Source: a virus | Length of the DNA: 30,194 nucleotides | Virus record (IMG/VR): IMGVR_UViG_3300044618_000514 | Span: 1-30,194 of that record | Strand: one strand, 5' to 3' | Shown: positions 1 through 4,462 of the stretch, piece after piece | How the letters are laid out: every line of letters begins with the position of its first letter | Numbering within the stretch: position 1 is the stretch's first letter | Notes under the pieces: generated by a model | The model's input: only the letters and a program-made list of their open reading frames with translations | What the model was told of the DNA's origin: nothing | The model's database searches: none | Translations under genes and position numbers: made by a program

Positions 1-249
1 CTCCCGCCGCTCACCGGCGCATTTTAGTTTCAAAATCGTCATAAAGGGGTCAAAACGGGCGCAAAACACGCAAATGCAATTTGTAAATGGGGATATACAT
101 GCATTTTTTTAAAATCGCATAGCGGCCCGTTTATCGCGTTTTGTATGGATTGACGCTATTTAATAGGCAATTGGTATTAATTCACAAATGCAAAACGGTG
201 CATTGTGCATGCTTTGGGGCATTGGGCGCGGTTTTCGGCCCGTTATGGC
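1..249. other. non-coding left margin
   Basis: No convincing ORF is visible on either strand. The stretch is rich in A/T runs alternating with GC-rich words such as GGGCGC and GGCCCG, like the block to its right. It lies downstream of the leftward HNH gene. In many cos-type phages HNH genes sit beside the packaging site and small terminase gene, so a cos or terminase region could lie here or just beyond the edge. That is inference from gene order; no cos-like motif was recognised. A weak sigma70-like pair (TTGACG at 150-155, TATTAA at 175-180) has a 19-nt spacer and no obvious gene to serve. Confidence 0.4.
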
Positions 250-705
250 TTAACGGGGTATCGCGCCGGGGTAATCTGCGCCCGAATAGTCAACGGGGGC
301 CGGTTCGGTGTAGTGTCTGAATATACCGCGCCGTTCTAGCGAACCCTTTACCGCATGACATGGGGCGCATAAGGTCTGAAACAAATTAAAACGAAAAGAA
401 TTAGGCCCGAATAATTTCCACGGGAAAACATGGTCTACATGTTCGCCGCTATTAATAACCCCCCGGCCCATGCATGCGGCGCATAAGGGGGCGCGGGTCA
501 ATTGGCCCGTTCTAATAATTTCCCATGCCCGGGTTTTATATGCGCGGTCCATGCTGCGCCGTTCGTTCGGTTCGGTTCTAACGGGGGCATGTTCGCTGCA
601 ATATATAGAACCCCGGATTGTCGGGGCCTTGCAATGGTATGCGGCGCATTGTGTCGGGGGCATTGTTGGCATGGTTTGCATCATATGCAAAATTTGCATA
701 ATCAC
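250..705 (-). CDS. HNH endonuclease
   Basis: A putative metal-dependent HNH nuclease of the kind that assists phage DNA packaging or acts as a free-standing nicking enzyme. The N-terminal half has a possible zinc knuckle (Cys20, Cys25, Cys36, His39, counted from the longest frame). The HNH core follows: Cys75-x2-Cys78, His89-Val-Asp91-His92, Asn107, then Cys113-x2-Cys116-His117. That is the usual beta-beta-alpha-metal pattern with two structural zinc-binding Cys pairs. The longest frame begins with GTG; several in-frame ATGs follow within 15 codons and none has a good Shine-Dalgarno, so the start is uncertain. It is transcribed away from the small rightward genes and shares their CCC/GGG-rich composition. 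Its place beside terminase genes is inferred only. Confidence 0.85.
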   Translation of the reverse strand: MIMQILHMMQTMPTMPPTQCAAYHCKAPTIRGSIYCSEHAPVRTEPNERRSMDRAYKTRAWEIIRTGQLTRAPLCAACMGRGVINSGEHVDHVFPWKLFGPNSFRFNLFQTLCAPCHAVKGSLERRGIFRHYTEPAPVDYSGADYPGAIPR

Positions 706-724
706 AATTATTTCAACAAATAGA

Positions 725-753
725 TTGTTATCCCCAGTTTTTTACTGTAATAT
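725..753 (+). promoter_or_regulatory. candidate sigma70 promoter for the small rightward genes
   Basis: TTGTTA at 725-730 and TAATAT at 748-753 are separated by 17 nt. They resemble the -35 and -10 consensus (TTGACA, TATAAT) and lie 45 nt upstream of the first rightward start codon at 798, in the divergent gap behind the HNH gene. It is the best-placed promoter for the whole 798-3348 operon. Confidence 0.5.
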
Positions 754-797
754 TCAAAACATGCACTGGGGGGTCCGGTGCAAATTAAGGGGAAAAC

Positions 798-1010
798 ATG
801 AAAACACTATCAAAAATTTTTTATATCTATTCTGATGCATGGGTGTCGGTGCTTATGTTCGCCGGTTTCATTGTCGAATTGGCATGTTCGTTTTTTGTGC
901 CAACACCAGTTTTGTATTTGACAATTCCCGCCGCTGTATTTTTTGGCATTGTGTCCGTATCAATGGCGCAATCCGTTTATGTTGACGCAAAAAAATCTAA
1001 TCTTATTTAA
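798..1010 (+). CDS. small membrane protein, unknown function
   Basis: 70 residues, first gene of the rightward cluster. ATG is preceded by a strong AAGGGG Shine-Dalgarno. Two hydrophobic stretches, about residues 16-34 and 38-58, suggest a two-pass inner-membrane protein with a charged tail ending in DAKKSNLI. I recognise no family. Position at the head of an early-looking cluster would fit a host-takeover or superinfection function, but nothing in the sequence shows that. The stop is followed after 10 nt by the next start, and the A-rich leader of the next gene begins at the stop codon. Confidence 0.65.
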   Translation: MKTLSKIFYIYSDAWVSVLMFAGFIVELACSFFVPTPVLYLTIPAAVFFGIVSVSMAQSVYVDAKKSNLI

Positions 1011-1020
1011 GGGGCAAAAA

Positions 1021-1218
1021 ATGAAACATTCGACATTTGTTAGCAATTTTTGGACATTGTCCGCAATTCGGGACGCATACACCGGCGCGGGTTTGCGTCA
1101 TGCTTTGCATTGGGCCGGTTATAAAACCCCGGCGCGTTTATCTAGCATGTATCTGCGCGGCGAACCCGCCGAATACATTTTGGCCGCATGTATCGCATGC
1201 GACACCGTGGGGGCATGA
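1021..1218 (+). CDS. small hypothetical protein
   Basis: 65 residues. The start at 1021 is chosen over the longer upstream frame because an AAGGGG ribosome-binding site sits just before it. The same leader, almost base for base, precedes the gene at 2772. The protein is mixed alpha-helical in character, with LSAIRDAYTGAGLRHALHWAG near the N-terminus and two close cysteines near the C-terminus (AACIACD). The region around residues 10-45 could form a short helix-turn-helix, which is only a guess. No family was recognised. The stop overlaps the region of the next start, so the two are probably translationally coupled. Confidence 0.55.
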   Translation: MKHSTFVSNFWTLSAIRDAYTGAGLRHALHWAGYKTPARLSSMYLRGEPAEYILAACIACDTVGA

Positions 1219-1219
1219 C

Positions 1220-1324
1220 ATGACCGAATTTCAAAACACTATTGCAGATATATGCTGCGCCGTTATTTGCGGCGCATTGTTAACCGTGGGCGCATTGGCC
1301 TATTTTGACATTTTATTTTTTTAA
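1220..1324 (+). CDS. 34-residue membrane peptide
   Basis: The ATG at 1220 lies one base after the previous stop and has a G-rich tract (GTGGGGG) 7-13 nt upstream. The product is 34 residues with one strong hydrophobic segment from about residue 11 to the end (DICCAVICGALLTVGALAYF), including three cysteines, so it is a probable single-pass membrane peptide. The longer frame starting at 1037 merely overlaps the previous gene. The stop at 1322-1324 merges into the AAGGGGG ribosome-binding site of the next gene. Function unknown. Confidence 0.5.
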   Translation: MTEFQNTIADICCAVICGALLTVGALAYFDILFF

Positions 1325-1334
1325 GGGGGAAAAC

Positions 1335-1892
1335 ATGGGACGAACCGCTATACATGACACCGGCGAATCAATCGGCGCAATTTGTACCCGCGAATTTTGC
1401 GCGGACAATCCGGGGGTTATCAAATTTTCAATTGTCGACCAATCGACCCGTGGCAATACATGGTACGCAATTGGGCGCATTGATAGGCCGAACGAAAACC
1501 CCGTTTTTTACGGTGTCATATGGTTAGTAAACCGCCGCCGGGGTGAATTTATTTATAAGGATATGTCAGAGGATTGCGGCCCTTATTATTATGATTGCCC
1601 GGCCCGTTTATTGGACCAATTAGACAAATTGGCCCCTAATGCGCCCGAATCGGCCCTTAATTGGCGCGCAAAATGCCGGGCCAATATTGCAGCAAAACGC
1701 AAACCGAAAACAATTATAAAACCCGGCGACATTGTCAAATTTTCACCCAATGGGGCCGAATTCAAATTATTAGAACCCGCCGGGCCGCGCCGTGGTTGGC
1801 ATGTTCAATTATTGGGCGCGGTCGGGTCAACGGTTCGGTCCATTTATCGGGCCAATTCGCGACAAATTAGTCAATGCATTGTTATTCAATAA
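1335..1892 (+). CDS. DUF6927-like protein
   Basis: 185 residues, started at 1335 because AAGGGGG lies 7 nt upstream; the frame is open 10 codons further but without a ribosome-binding site. The core reads as YKDMSEDCGPYYYDCP at about residues 83-98, followed by an NWRAKCRAN motif near residue 124. From memory this matches a family of unknown function, DUF6927, found on phages and plasmids, where a KDMDE..GPYY..CP signature precedes a WR.RCR segment. A basic linker (about 125-140) leads to a C-terminal beta-rich domain with KPGDIVKF near its start, resembling a small SH3-like or KOW-like barrel. Family assignment is moderately secure; role unknown. Confidence 0.65.
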   Translation: MGRTAIHDTGESIGAICTREFCADNPGVIKFSIVDQSTRGNTWYAIGRIDRPNENPVFYGVIWLVNRRRGEFIYKDMSEDCGPYYYDCPARLLDQLDKLAPNAPESALNWRAKCRANIAAKRKPKTIIKPGDIVKFSPNGAEFKLLEPAGPRRGWHVQLLGAVGSTVRSIYRANSRQISQCIVIQ

Positions 1893-1902
1893 GGGGGAAC
1901 AA

Positions 1903-2022
1903 ATGACAAATGAACAAATATGCGAACTATACGCGCGCAAATTGAACATGACGCTGCGCGAATTGTCCGCAATCACTGGGAAAACAATTCCCGAACTAAA
2001 AAAAATACTCTTAAATAATTGA
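1903..2022 (+). CDS. 39-residue putative helix-turn-helix peptide
   Basis: An AAGGGGG ribosome-binding site 7 nt before the ATG at 1903 fixes the start. The product is short and charged. Residues about 14-36 (MTLRELSAITGKTIPELKKI) have the spacing of a minimal helix-turn-helix with Ala-x3-Gly-x-x-Ile in the turn region. That would suit a small DNA-binding regulator, but 39 residues is short even for a mini-repressor, so the assignment is tentative. Codon use and leader match the neighbouring genes. Confidence 0.5.
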   Translation: MTNEQICELYARKLNMTLRELSAITGKTIPELKKILLNN

Positions 2023-2035
2023 AAGTAAATAAAAC

Positions 2036-2761
2036 ATGACAAAACAAAACAATTTTACGATGTCCCCCGTTGCATACGGTTTGCGGGTTCACTTTGTCCC
2101 GGTTTCAAGCAATGTCAAAACCGGACCAATCCCCGTTACCTATAGCGAACGGTCAACATGCCCCCTATCATGCCCCCATTACCGGGCCGATTGTTATGCA
2201 GAGGATTACTTTGTCCGCATGACATGGGACAAAGTACCAATGCGCGGCGGCGACTGGGGGGACTTATTAATGCATGTTTCAGGTTTACCCGCCGGTCAAT
2301 TATGGCGACACAATGTTGCGGGTGACTTACCCGGCGAAAATGAAACAGTCGACCCCGTTTTATTGGGTCAATTGGTTGACGCGAACATTGGAAAACGGGG
2401 CTTCACTTACACGCATAAGCATACCCCGGACGCTCTGCAATGGGTGAAACATGCGAACGAATGGGGTTTTACGGTCAATTTAAGCGCGGACGATGCCGGG
2501 CATGCGGACGAATTAGCGGACACCGGCGCGGGTCCCGTTGTTTGCATTGTCCCCAGTGATACACCAGAAAAAACGCAAACCCCAGCGGGTCGACCGATTG
2601 TTATTTGTCCGGCGCAAACCCATGACGGGGTGACATGTGCATCATGCGGATTGTGTCAACGGGTAAACCGGTCGGTAATTGTAGGTTTTCGGGCGCATGG
2701 GACCCGTGCAAAGCTTACCAATGTAACGGCGCGGCGCGTCATTCCAATTGTAAAAATTTAA
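2036..2761 (+). CDS. DUF7227-like protein with clustered cysteines
   Basis: 241 residues. From memory it belongs to a phage and plasmid family of unknown function now called DUF7227. Conserved-looking blocks are: VPVSSNVKTGPIPVT at about 21-35; Cys42-x3-Cys46-x6-Cys53 followed by YAE; GQLWRHNVAGDLPGE near 90; KRGFTYTHK near 118; FTVNLSADDAGHAD near 145; and a C-terminal CxxCGLC segment near 200 followed by VIVGFRAHG. The two cysteine clusters suggest a zinc or iron-sulfur site. The CYAE word also occurs in DUF5131 proteins, which look radical-SAM-like; shared ancestry is inference. Unlike its neighbours it has a weak ribosome-binding site (GAAAG about 12 nt upstream). Confidence 0.7.
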   Translation: MTKQNNFTMSPVAYGLRVHFVPVSSNVKTGPIPVTYSERSTCPLSCPHYRADCYAEDYFVRMTWDKVPMRGGDWGDLLMHVSGLPAGQLWRHNVAGDLPGENETVDPVLLGQLVDANIGKRGFTYTHKHTPDALQWVKHANEWGFTVNLSADDAGHADELADTGAGPVVCIVPSDTPEKTQTPAGRPIVICPAQTHDGVTCASCGLCQRVNRSVIVGFRAHGTRAKLTNVTARRVIPIVKI

Positions 2762-2771
2762 GGGGCAAAAA

Positions 2772-3095
2772 ATGAAACACTATCCAGTAATGAATTATTC
2801 GGTATGGAATGAGGACGGGAAAACCTATAAAGAATTTGACGATGTCGCATTTGAAGGCCCGTGCAAAGTGATTGCAGATAAAACACAATTTTTTGGGGGC
2901 AAAAAATCAAAACCTTATGAGGGTGAATTGATTGTTAACCCGACATGGGCGCAATTGTTTATTGAAGCAATGAAACAGCAGCAGCAAACCTTAGATTTTC
3001 ATCATTCATTTTTAGAAGGGGCAGAAATTACCGCTACAGTAAAAAACGGCGGGTTAACAATGGTTCAATTTATTCGTTTACATTTGGGGTCATAA
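2772..3095 (+). CDS. hypothetical protein
   Basis: 107 residues. The AAGGGG leader overlaps the previous stop codon and is nearly identical to that of the gene at 1021, including the first codons (ATGAAACA). The N-terminal half is acidic and beta-strand-like (VWNEDGKTYKEFDDVAF). A GGKKSKPYEGE segment around 43-53 and a QQQQ run near residue 70 precede a helical C-terminus. No family was recognised. The next start codon begins 2 nt after its stop codon. Confidence 0.6.
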   Translation: MKHYPVMNYSVWNEDGKTYKEFDDVAFEGPCKVIADKTQFFGGKKSKPYEGELIVNPTWAQLFIEAMKQQQQTLDFHHSFLEGAEITATVKNGGLTMVQFIRLHLGS

Positions 3096-3096
3096 C

Positions 3097-3348
3097 ATGG
3101 GACATTTTGCAGCATTAGATATTGAAAACCGCGAACGGGCCGAATGGGTCGAATTTATAACCAATGCGCCCCTAGAATGCGGGACCATTGGGGTTTGCTT
3201 AGACGATACCCGAAACCCGCCAAAATTTTACGAATTTGACGGTTATTGGGACATGAAAACCGTTGACCTAGTGTTGATTGATTCTAAAAACCCGCGCCGC
3301 ATGTATACCCGCCGGGTCCCTATTGAACTATTTTGGCCCCTAACCTAA
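3097..3348 (+). CDS. hypothetical protein, last gene of the rightward cluster
   Basis: 83 residues, ATG one base after the previous stop, with GGGG about 9 nt upstream lying inside the preceding gene. The protein is acidic and tryptophan-rich, with two Trp-containing strands (EWVEF and YWDM) and a basic RRMYTRR patch near the C-terminus. No conserved domain was recognised. It is followed within 20 nt by a strong intrinsic terminator, which marks it as the end of the operon. Composition is the same CCC/GGC-rich style as its upstream neighbours. Confidence 0.55.
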   Translation: MGHFAALDIENRERAEWVEFITNAPLECGTIGVCLDDTRNPPKFYEFDGYWDMKTVDLVLIDSKNPRRMYTRRVPIELFWPLT

Positions 3349-3364
3349 CCCGGTAAACCTAAGC

Positions 3365-3391
3365 AATCCCGGCCCCGTGCTGGGATTTTTT
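3365..3391 (+). terminator. intrinsic terminator closing the rightward cluster
   Basis: A 9-bp stem (3365-3373 with 3379-3387, AATCCCGGC against GCTGGGATT, one G-T wobble) encloses the 5-nt loop CCCGT and runs into TTTTTT at 3386-3391. Stem, loop and U-tract are all canonical, and it lies 17 nt after the stop codon at 3348. Confidence 0.85.
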
Positions 3392-3406
3392 GGGTTTGCT
3401 AAGTTG

Positions 3407-3418
3407 GTAAGCGCTTAC
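3407..3418. repeat. 12-bp perfect palindrome GTAAGCGCTTAC
   Basis: The half-site GTAAGC is followed directly by its complement GCTTAC. The right half continues as TTC, and GCGCTTACTTC is repeated at 3710-3720. This is a typical size for a dimeric repressor or initiator site. Confidence 0.7.
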
Positions 3419-3712
3419 TTCAAAACCGTTTTAATGCGGTTTTGTGCATTGGGTCCAATGGTCCGGACAATGAAACCGGCGCAGCATGGGGCGCATTGTG
3501 GCCCCGGTGGAATTGTCAAAACCTAGGGTTTGCGGCGGGTTTTGTGGTGTTTTTGGTTTGCGGGTTTTAATCGCGTTTTGCGCCGTTTTTTGGTTTGCAT
3601 GCTATCCATGCACCAATACCCAAAAAATCGCGTTTTAACGGCGTTTTTGGCCCATTGTTAAGCCTAATTTTGGGGTTAAAACGGCGACAAAAAACCAAAA
3701 ACGAAGTGGGCG

Positions 3713-3747
3713 CTTACTTCGGAAAAGTGAAGTAAGTACTCACTTAC
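3713..3747. repeat. overlapping inverted repeats of the CTTACTTC family
   Basis: CTTACTTC (3713-3720) pairs with GAAGTAAG (3729-3736) around an 8-nt loop. Overlapping this, GTAAGT (3732-3737) pairs with ACTTAC (3742-3747) around a 4-nt loop. The two hairpins share GTAAG and are mutually exclusive. No U-tract follows, so a terminator is unlikely; a protein-binding site or origin element is more plausible. Confidence 0.6.
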
Positions 3748-3802
3748 AGGGGTAGAAAATCCCTATAGCCACCTACGCATTCTTAAAAAAAAAATTTAAA
3801 GC

Positions 3803-3830
3803 AAAAAAATTGCCCAGACAAGCCGGGCAA
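3803..3830 (-). terminator. intrinsic terminator closing the leftward early operon
   Basis: On the minus strand an 8-bp stem (TTGCCCGG against CTGGGCAA with one G-T wobble, 3830-3823 with 3817-3810) has the loop CTTGT and is followed by TTTTTTT (3809-3803). It lies 30 nt after the last leftward stop codon at 3861. An A-run on the 5' side of the stem gives the usual symmetrical layout. Confidence 0.85.
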
Positions 3831-3860: not shown

Positions 3861-4073
3861 CTATGAAAATTTTCGCATAGCTTTACGAAATTTCCCAGTA
3901 ATATTTGCAGATTTGTCGCCACTTTCTGAAATATCTACAGCAATTACCAAATTGCTCTCACCTTTGTAGCCAGAAGCGTAAGCCGCCCTAGCAACTGCCA
4001 GCGCTTTAGCCTTACTGTCAAATGGTCCCTTAGAACCCCAGAACCAGCCTGACTGACGCTTAACGAGTGGCAT
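3861..4073 (-). CDS. hypothetical protein, last gene of the early operon
   Basis: 70 residues when started at 4073, where ATG overlaps the upstream stop in TAATG; the longer frame to 4112 lies inside the upstream gene. The segment SGWFWGSKGPFDSKAKALAVARAAYASGYKGE (stated here in parts: SGWFWGSKGPF then SKAKALAVARAAYASG) has an aromatic turn followed by an amphipathic helix. The tail is basic (KFRKAMRKF). It looks like a small folded, possibly nucleic-acid-binding protein. No family was recognised. The terminator at 3803-3830 follows it. Confidence 0.6.
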   Translation of the reverse strand: MPLVKRQSGWFWGSKGPFDSKAKALAVARAAYASGYKGESNLVIAVDISESGDKSANITGKFRKAMRKFS

Positions 4074-4462
4074 TATTTCAGGAATTTCAGCTTGTACATG
4101 GTGGAATCGCACAGGGCTGCAATCTCATCTGCAATGTTTTGCATTTCAGAATCCTGTGGGAAGCCGGGCAGTTGACGGTAGTAGGCCAATTGCTCACTGA
4201 CATAGGCAACAAGCTCCAGACCATTTTTCCCCAGAAAAAGTGCCTTTTCCGCGAAAATTATTTTCGAGTATTTGCCTTGGTATGCCTCGATGAAGCTGTC
4301 AGCTAAGTCATCAATGCCGTCATAGAAATCGCCTAACGCCATGTGCTGGGAGAAGCTATCGGTAGTCAGATGGTGAATATGCCCTGCTGTTACAGCGTTA
4401 AGCATACACATAGCAAAGTCGCCCATTACATTGGCTTGTGCTTCATTGACTGTGAACTTCAT
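4073..4462 (-). CDS. DUF5856-like helical protein
   Basis: 129 residues, almost wholly alpha-helical, with an AAGGAG ribosome-binding site 8 nt upstream. HIHHLTTDSFSQHMALGDFYDGIDDLADSFIE (in parts: HIHHLTTDSFSQH near 28-40, then ALGDFYDGIDD) resembles the phage family DUF5856. Those proteins recall ferritin or Dps-like four-helix bundles, with regularly spaced His, Glu and Asp. Whether it binds metal is not shown. Family assignment is from memory and moderately secure. It sits near the end of the early operon, after the recombination genes. Confidence 0.6.
   Translation of the reverse strand: MKFTVNEAQANVMGDFAMCMLNAVTAGHIHHLTTDSFSQHMALGDFYDGIDDLADSFIEAYQGKYSKIIFAEKALFLGKNGLELVAYVSEQLAYYRQLPGFPQDSEMQNIADEIAALCDSTMYKLKFLK

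Follow-up and report, generated by a model that had tools for sequence, protein, structure and literature searches.

Why does one end of a phage genome differ so sharply in composition from the remainder? The question is raised by a 30,194-nucleotide (nt) stretch of viral DNA, positions 1 to 30,194 of IMG/VR virus record IMGVR_UViG_3300044618_000514 (hereafter the window, and its phage W), which begins with a block of small genes around a DUF7227 gene. An initial annotation, made from the letters alone, read this block as a self-contained module acquired from another phage or plasmid. The main compositional feature of the block, missing from that annotation, is a depletion of the dinucleotides AG and CT. 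We describe the extent of this depletion, its maintenance in diverged relatives, the exchange of the block as a cassette for others that are poor in different words, and the agents that may select for it.

AG and CT depletion in the first block of the window

Relative to the expectation from base composition (rho), AG and CT stand at 0.32 and 0.36 in the block, counted from the contig start, versus 1.07 and 0.86 outside. A maximal-segment scan delimits positions 11-3705 as the maximal AG/CT-poor segment of the window, with a z of -10.8 against 106 flank control windows of 3 kilobases (kb; mean 0.968, standard deviation 0.060, minimum 0.762). The preceding base matters for the loss of AG, as GAG, CAG and AAG are strongly reduced and TAG mildly. 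AG/CT rho is 0.31, 0.27 and 0.38 in the three codon phases and 0.30 in noncoding DNA, and the depletion extends to both strands, to both gene orientations and to the spacer past the terminator of the plus-strand operon (0.27 at 3400-3700). Phase-independent depletion was likewise seen for CG in the related locus L095 and for AG in L119. Because the three codon phases and noncoding DNA are depleted alike, with both strands affected, the target is the DNA itself rather than its codons, which rules out codon or translation bias as the cause. Avoidance at the RNA level is not favoured, since CT on the sense strand is nearly as low as AG and the depletion continues past the terminator into the spacer; in three relatives (L119, L113 and L128) sense AG is lower than CT. 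The constraint most likely acts at the level of double-stranded DNA and not on transcripts.

Other words are enriched. The initial annotation described the sequence up to about position 3750 as rich in CCC, GGGG, GCGC and CATG, and the densities per kb in positions 1-3750 versus the rest bear this out: 54.1 versus 15.4 for CCC/GGG, 17.9 versus 2.2 for GGGG/CCCC, 12.0 versus 3.9 for GCGC and 12.3 versus 3.6 for CATG. Its remarks on proline were also accurate: the DUF7227 gene uses mostly CCC and never CCT (CCC 9, CCA 5, CCG 4, CCT 0), and eight tail or structural genes use mainly CCA and CCT (CCA 100, CCT 87, CCG 22, CCC 21). Since CATG, GGCC and GCGC are all enriched inside the block, avoidance of palindromic restriction sites is ruled out as the cause of its composition. 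GATC and ACGT, correctly described as lost from the block, are at zero there (Markov expectation 2.9 and 5.5) and at zero in the rest of the window (59.6 and 36.4). Several six-base palindromes, among them GGCGCC (0 versus 24 expected), TGCGCA and GGGCCC, are missing from the window and from the unique part of L002, a second contig of the window phage.

Alternative cassettes, their exchange and their maintenance

DUF7227 as a query retrieved 80 viral loci, in which AG/CT is lowest at the DUF7227 gene and rises again within about 2 kb to either side. The dip varies gradually in depth, with values between 0.18 and more than 1 over the 1.2 kb upstream of DUF7227; it is absent in Pakpunavirus PAK_P1, weak in Curvibacter phage P26059A and moderate in DSL-LC05. 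No donor with genome-wide AG/CT poverty was found among the loci examined.

With the first conserved flank gene (4073-4462) as an anchor for the same slot, 27 loci were fetched. The slot is AG-poor in L094 (the window phage), L097, L113, L115 and L119. L113 and L119 are equally AG-poor with GP88 in place of DUF7227, which rules out DUF7227 as the cause; the GP88 of L119 had no match when searched against the phage collection. Eight further loci (L095, L096, L099, L102, L105, L108, L109 and L111) have a CG-poor slot, with a CG rho of 0.24-0.35 versus 0.70-0.83 in the flanks; AAC and GAAC are also low there, and GP88 is carried by CG-poor cassettes too. The flank gene shares 96% (L095) and 93% (L096) of its residues with that of the window phage, yet both loci are CG-poor. 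The slot of eight others is only mildly biased (CCA, CAG, CTC), and no single clear avoided word was found in this class. Whatever the cassette length, the AG-poor and CG-poor segments extend from near the genome-end element described below up to a point 300-610 bases short of the flank gene, and their length, about 2.9-4.0 kb, tracks the cassette rather than a fixed distance. Cassette starts were set by hand for L095, L109, L112, L113 and L117, where the element is poorly matched, L007 and L117 were classed as intermediate, and duplicates (L001, L085-L090, L094 or L002) were dropped from some tables.

Related phages exchange the cassette whole. In alignments across classes (L111 with L110, L108 with L107, W with L095 and W with L096), DNA similarity continues through the flanks, ends at or near the genome-end element and restarts at the convergence point at the inner edge, and the sharp compositional edges coincide with the cassette. 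L099 is CG-poor and L098 CG-normal, with HNH proteins that are 80% identical and 15 CG in place of 35 in their homologous DNA; gene content therefore does not fix the avoided word. As separate observations, the noncoding tails of mild-class cassettes (L110, L107 and others) are dense in oriented GGCAGGC, with GGCAGG counts of 93 versus 0 per strand in seven 450-nt tails, and AG-poor and CG-poor tails have separate word sets of their own. Two intermediate cassettes, L143 and L131, contain no GATC where flank frequencies would predict about 20 and 22 copies; the flanks themselves keep it.

Substitutions that create AG/CT reach 0.34-0.54 of chance in six comparisons of AG-poor cassettes and 1.02-1.26 in four comparisons of matched flanks, under a null in which the same changes are placed at random with no codon constraints. 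CG gains amount to 0.27-0.42 in four pairs of CG-poor cassettes and 0.53-0.90 in their flanks. AG/CT sites of AG-normal DUF7227 genes correspond to CG, AA, TT, GG, AT and others in the AG-poor ones, and the losses include two-change codon swaps for leucine (CTG to TTA) and serine (AGC to TCA). Low AG/CT gain together with loss through every substitution type argues for selection rather than mutation bias, and suggests that purifying selection upholds the AG/CT poverty.

W, L003, L004 and L005 have co-diverged in block (identity 0.795-0.802) and flank (0.775-0.786), with 0.795 and 0.775 for W versus L004. After 11-31% divergence, L003, L004, L005 and L020 hold the block with the same sharp two-part composition; a drift of its composition towards that of the host genome was not seen in these four, and new AG/CT is still kept out. 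Relatives with the same block thus speak against the unblended import proposed in the initial annotation. The module it described is indeed exchanged as a unit; that its composition is a donor leftover is not supported. Both the anatomy of the cassette and its maintenance are well supported.

Probable genome end, genes and features of the cassette

A scan for the pattern CTCC, 17 bases, TTTTAGTTTCAAA gave 47 stretches, or 48 places with the window. By context 28 of the 48 are genuine, and the 20 without that context were set aside. The contig begins at most 2 nt from CTCC at 10 of the 28 genuine elements; the other 18 are read through, with GCGCCTG just upstream. Independent assemblies that stop at one base point to a physical genome end, and the outer-edge element is probably a cos end, judging from contig starts and read-throughs. 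Its core CCCCGCGCCTG/CTCC is identical across all composition classes, and the CCTG/CTCC core holds CAG and GAG words. Six of the 28 sites have less than 900 nt downstream and were not classed; the remaining 22 comprise five AG-poor (0.28-0.34, two of them the window phage), five intermediate (0.60-0.71), seven mild and five CG-poor sites. L002 has the same letters as the window over the block and normal sequence on either side; on the far side of the element it carries a C5-methyltransferase gene, then the small and large terminase and the portal. The methyltransferase gene (L002 7124-7867), on the terminase side of the genome end, is an orphan C5-cytosine methyltransferase gene. In all 61 loci where it was found, the large terminase is encoded upstream of DUF7227, at a distance of 1.9-4.4 kb and on the opposite strand. 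The word-poor segment makes up about a tenth (about 9.7%) of the genome of about 38 kb.

Table 1. Features of the cassette and its edges in the window (aa, amino acids; ORF, open reading frame)
Feature	Position	Strand	Basis
Conserved genome-end element, putative cos side: CTCC, 17 variable bases, TTTTAGTTTCAAAATCG	1..38	+	contig starts, read-through in L002
AG/CT-poor segment, rho 0.32	11..3705	.	maximal-segment scan, profiles, z -10.8
HNH endonuclease gene, adjoins genome end, divergent from the other genes	250..705	-	phrog_144, E 4.4e-22
Small ORF, 70 aa, without family at meaningful score	798..1010	+	profile searches
Small ORF, 65 aa, without family	1021..1218	+	profile searches
Small ORF, 34 aa, without family	1220..1324	+	profile searches
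DUF6927-like / phrog_21047 gene, 185 aa	1335..1892	+	phrog_21047, E 3.1e-15
39-aa gene, in AG-poor cassettes only (7/8; 0/17 others)	1903..2022	+	gene-content comparison
DUF7227 gene (PF23872), 241 aa, invariant Cys clusters	2036..2761	+	Pfam, alignments, model
ORF, 107 aa, without family	2772..3095	+	profile searches
Last cassette gene, 83 aa, common to AG-poor and CG-poor cassettes (15/25)	3097..3348	+	gene-content comparison
Terminator-like hairpin, strong, closes plus operon	3365..3387	+	
Noncoding tail between convergent terminators, still AG/CT-poor	3388..3705	.	
Palindrome of GTNAGYRCTYAC type, three copies (3407-3418, 3706-3717, 3732-3743)	3407..3743	.	
Terminator-like hairpin of convergent minus operon, inner edge	3810..3830	-	
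First conserved flank gene (phrog_858), anchor for finding the same slot in relatives	4073..4462	-	

The block's own ribosome-binding style and terminator, both claimed initially, were recovered: AAGGGG-type sites precede five of the eight plus-strand genes, and a strong hairpin follows the last of them. A promoter of its own found no backing, as promoter-like sites in the block are no commoner than in shuffles (7 found versus 8.6 expected). Most other cassette proteins matched no family in Pfam, PHROG and further profile searches. The HNH product scores just below the Pfam HNH cut-off (21.1 versus 21.4 bits), next to its clear phrog_144 match. A homologue occurs in 24 of the 25 cassettes compared (L101 and L104, with cassettes too short, stand outside this gene-content table), and its tree is long-branched, with poorly supported inner nodes. 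An HNH remnant at a contig end (L113 10277-10459) is oriented opposite to that of other cassettes. Palindromes of the GTNAGYRCTNAC type are repeated at the inner edge (window 3407-3743; L096 7720-7962) and are retained despite containing AG/CT; L096 and L111 have similar copies at their inner edges, and these palindromes could possibly be operators, iterons or an entry-stop site.

The label DUF7227-like is confirmed by a PF23872 match of E 6.6e-80 and 268 bits (cut-off 27), covering positions 2-219 of the 223 of the profile. DUF6927-like falls just under the threshold (PF21992, 25.3 bits against a Pfam cut-off of 27, E 1.5e-5), and its relatives in viral contigs amount to three loci, all of one clade. 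The annotation placed both families in phages and plasmids. DUF7227 is a phage gene and hardly a plasmid gene: it occurs in 186 of 50,697 phage records, in 2 of 72,556 plasmid records and at three loci in 84,980 species genomes, and a plasmid origin of the block is not supported by these counts. Its invariant cysteines (alignments without L042 and L039, whose frame holds a stop) form the clusters C42, C46 and C53 (CX3CX6C) and C191, C201, C204 and C207; the canonical radical SAM motif CX3CX2C is not present. The predicted structure is a TIM-like barrel (pTM 0.84). A Foldseek search with this model gave no match at E ≤ 0.001, and the structural list is topped by QueE (Z 5.6) and PFL activase (Z 5.5), below the telling level of the tool, for which reason a radical-SAM-like fold serves as a lead only. 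No paper on DUF7227 was found in the PubMed Central literature, which gives weak evidence as preprints and most subscription papers lie outside it.

Possible agents of selection against short words

Lambda-like phages package their DNA from the terminase end and inject the opposite end ahead of the rest. The reading that we prefer, though with less than even confidence, is that the cassette is a modular operon at the genome end, part of the leading DNA, in which a defence or nuclease selects against short words. Its one divergent HNH gene and its plus-strand operon of small genes with DUF7227 would lie between the putative cos end on the outer side and the convergent terminators on the inner side. 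By the lambda/HK97 rule, we infer that this end, opposite the terminase, enters the cell first. The operon would then have to stay intact and be expressed while the remaining genome is still unprotected, and may shed short words recognised by some defence or nuclease that acts on incoming DNA. The lack of AG/CT would be a live constraint on double-stranded DNA and not a fading donor signature, with new AG/CT, above all as GAG, CAG and AAG and hardly as TAG, removed by purifying selection; the alternative cassettes of related phages would avoid CG plus AAC or, mildly, CCA/CAG. A bolder version, possible but doubtful in our judgement, holds that entry proceeds in two steps or that the leading segment is privileged, and that discrete alleles with restricted vocabularies (no VAG; no CG and AAC; few CCA/CAG) answer a host or rival-phage nuclease reading two- or three-base words on entering DNA.

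Several observations weigh against selection on leading DNA. DUF7227 loci with the terminase-divergent layout often have little or no dip (for instance L042 1.11, L024 0.99, L034/L035 0.97); position or layout alone is therefore an insufficient cause, and position as the whole cause is ruled out. We know of no defence that reads AG, VAG or CG. No cassette protein could be assigned to a known anti-defence family, and PADLOC, which covers defence genes, gave at best a weak PtuB match for the HNH protein (E 0.0059). The CG result is less clean because CG gains fall below chance in the flanks as well. Finally, GATC avoidance in the flanks is common to W, L095 and L096 (and ACGT avoidance to W and L096) despite their differing class; as it is shared, these phages perhaps have the same host.

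Known systems offer partial parallels. Animal viruses avoid CpG and UpA genome-wide and at the RNA level; there too selection acts on a dinucleotide and not on a long site, whereas here it would be local, double-stranded and allele-specific. Phage T5 is known to enter in two steps and to lack whole restriction sites in its first-step region. PMC9345386 gives the first-step DNA as the first 7.9% of the genome, which enters alone and carries insensitivity to restriction. The cassette resembles it in lying at a genome end, in its similar fraction of the genome and in its operon of uncharacterised, putatively early genes, as well as in an unusual lack of DNA words relative to the rest of the genome. 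However, a dinucleotide is avoided here, alternative alleles avoid other words and the order of entry is deduced; nor are restriction sites absent from the segment only, GATC and ACGT being absent throughout the window. Leading regions of plasmids are described as anti-defence islands in PMC11541004, and those of conjugative plasmids are likewise modular, with variable small genes at the first-entering end; the cassette differs in that its entry order follows from the lambda/HK97 rule and that no known anti-defence gene is recognised in it. As in HK97, where the HNH protein acts with terminase in cos cleavage (PMC10448857), an HNH gene lies beside the genome end with terminase on the other side, but here it sits inside an exchangeable, word-poor cassette.

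Five other explanations account for parts of this evidence. A shared pool of cassettes, each class keeping the composition of its usual genomes with no constraint in the present phage, would explain whole-unit exchange, the coincidence of cassette and compositional edges, and classes that differ in enriched words too, such as the oriented GGCAGGC arrays of the mild class. We consider it unlikely, since AG/CT is still excluded where block and flank have co-diverged (W, L003, L004 and L005), no AG-poor replicon occurs among the loci screened, and the homologous genes of L098 and L099 differ in class. Simple import, the codon use being that of the donor, is very improbable: it fits the foreign look and the sharp edges of the block, but not a composition maintained in noncoding DNA and across at least four diverged relatives. 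Hardly any credence is left for a mutation bias local to the genome end, which would affect coding and noncoding sites equally, as observed, because substitution rates are similar in block and flank, AG is replaced by many different dinucleotides, and classes differ between near-identical phages.

The two remaining explanations place the agent in the phage itself. If terminase and HNH cut cos only near a full head, the last-packaged tenth could lose words that resemble the nick site, and the avoided word would follow the nuclease. The position at the putative cos end, the nearly constant HNH gene, its HK97 precedent (PMC10448857), the segment's share of the 38-kb genome and the CAG and GAG words within CCTG/CTCC all agree with such packaging self-avoidance. 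It is nevertheless decidedly unlikely, given that segment length tracks the cassette, that CCCCGCGCCTG/CTCC is the same in every class and that L099 and L098 differ in class with HNH proteins so alike. Self-immunity, in which a cassette enzyme (DUF7227/GP88 or HNH) modifies or cuts a short word that its own operon avoids, draws on the Cys-cluster protein or HNH present in every fully read cassette and on the radical-SAM-like barrels that head the fold list of the DUF7227 model; it seems improbable to us, as AG-poor cassettes carry either DUF7227 or GP88 (L113, L119), CG-poor ones also carry GP88, and the remaining phage genome retains the avoided words.

Within the same limits of the PubMed Central literature, no description of local dinucleotide avoidance of this kind in phages was found. 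The block illustrates that a foreign-looking composition need not imply recent transfer. If selection bars a dinucleotide from the terminal tenth only, something in the cell would read that end in another way than the remaining genome. AG-poor, CG-poor and mild alleles in otherwise near-identical phages provide a ready-made comparison for the selecting agent, and, if the bolder version above is true, word avoidance at the genome end would be a readable fossil of the first DNA-reading defence that the phage meets.

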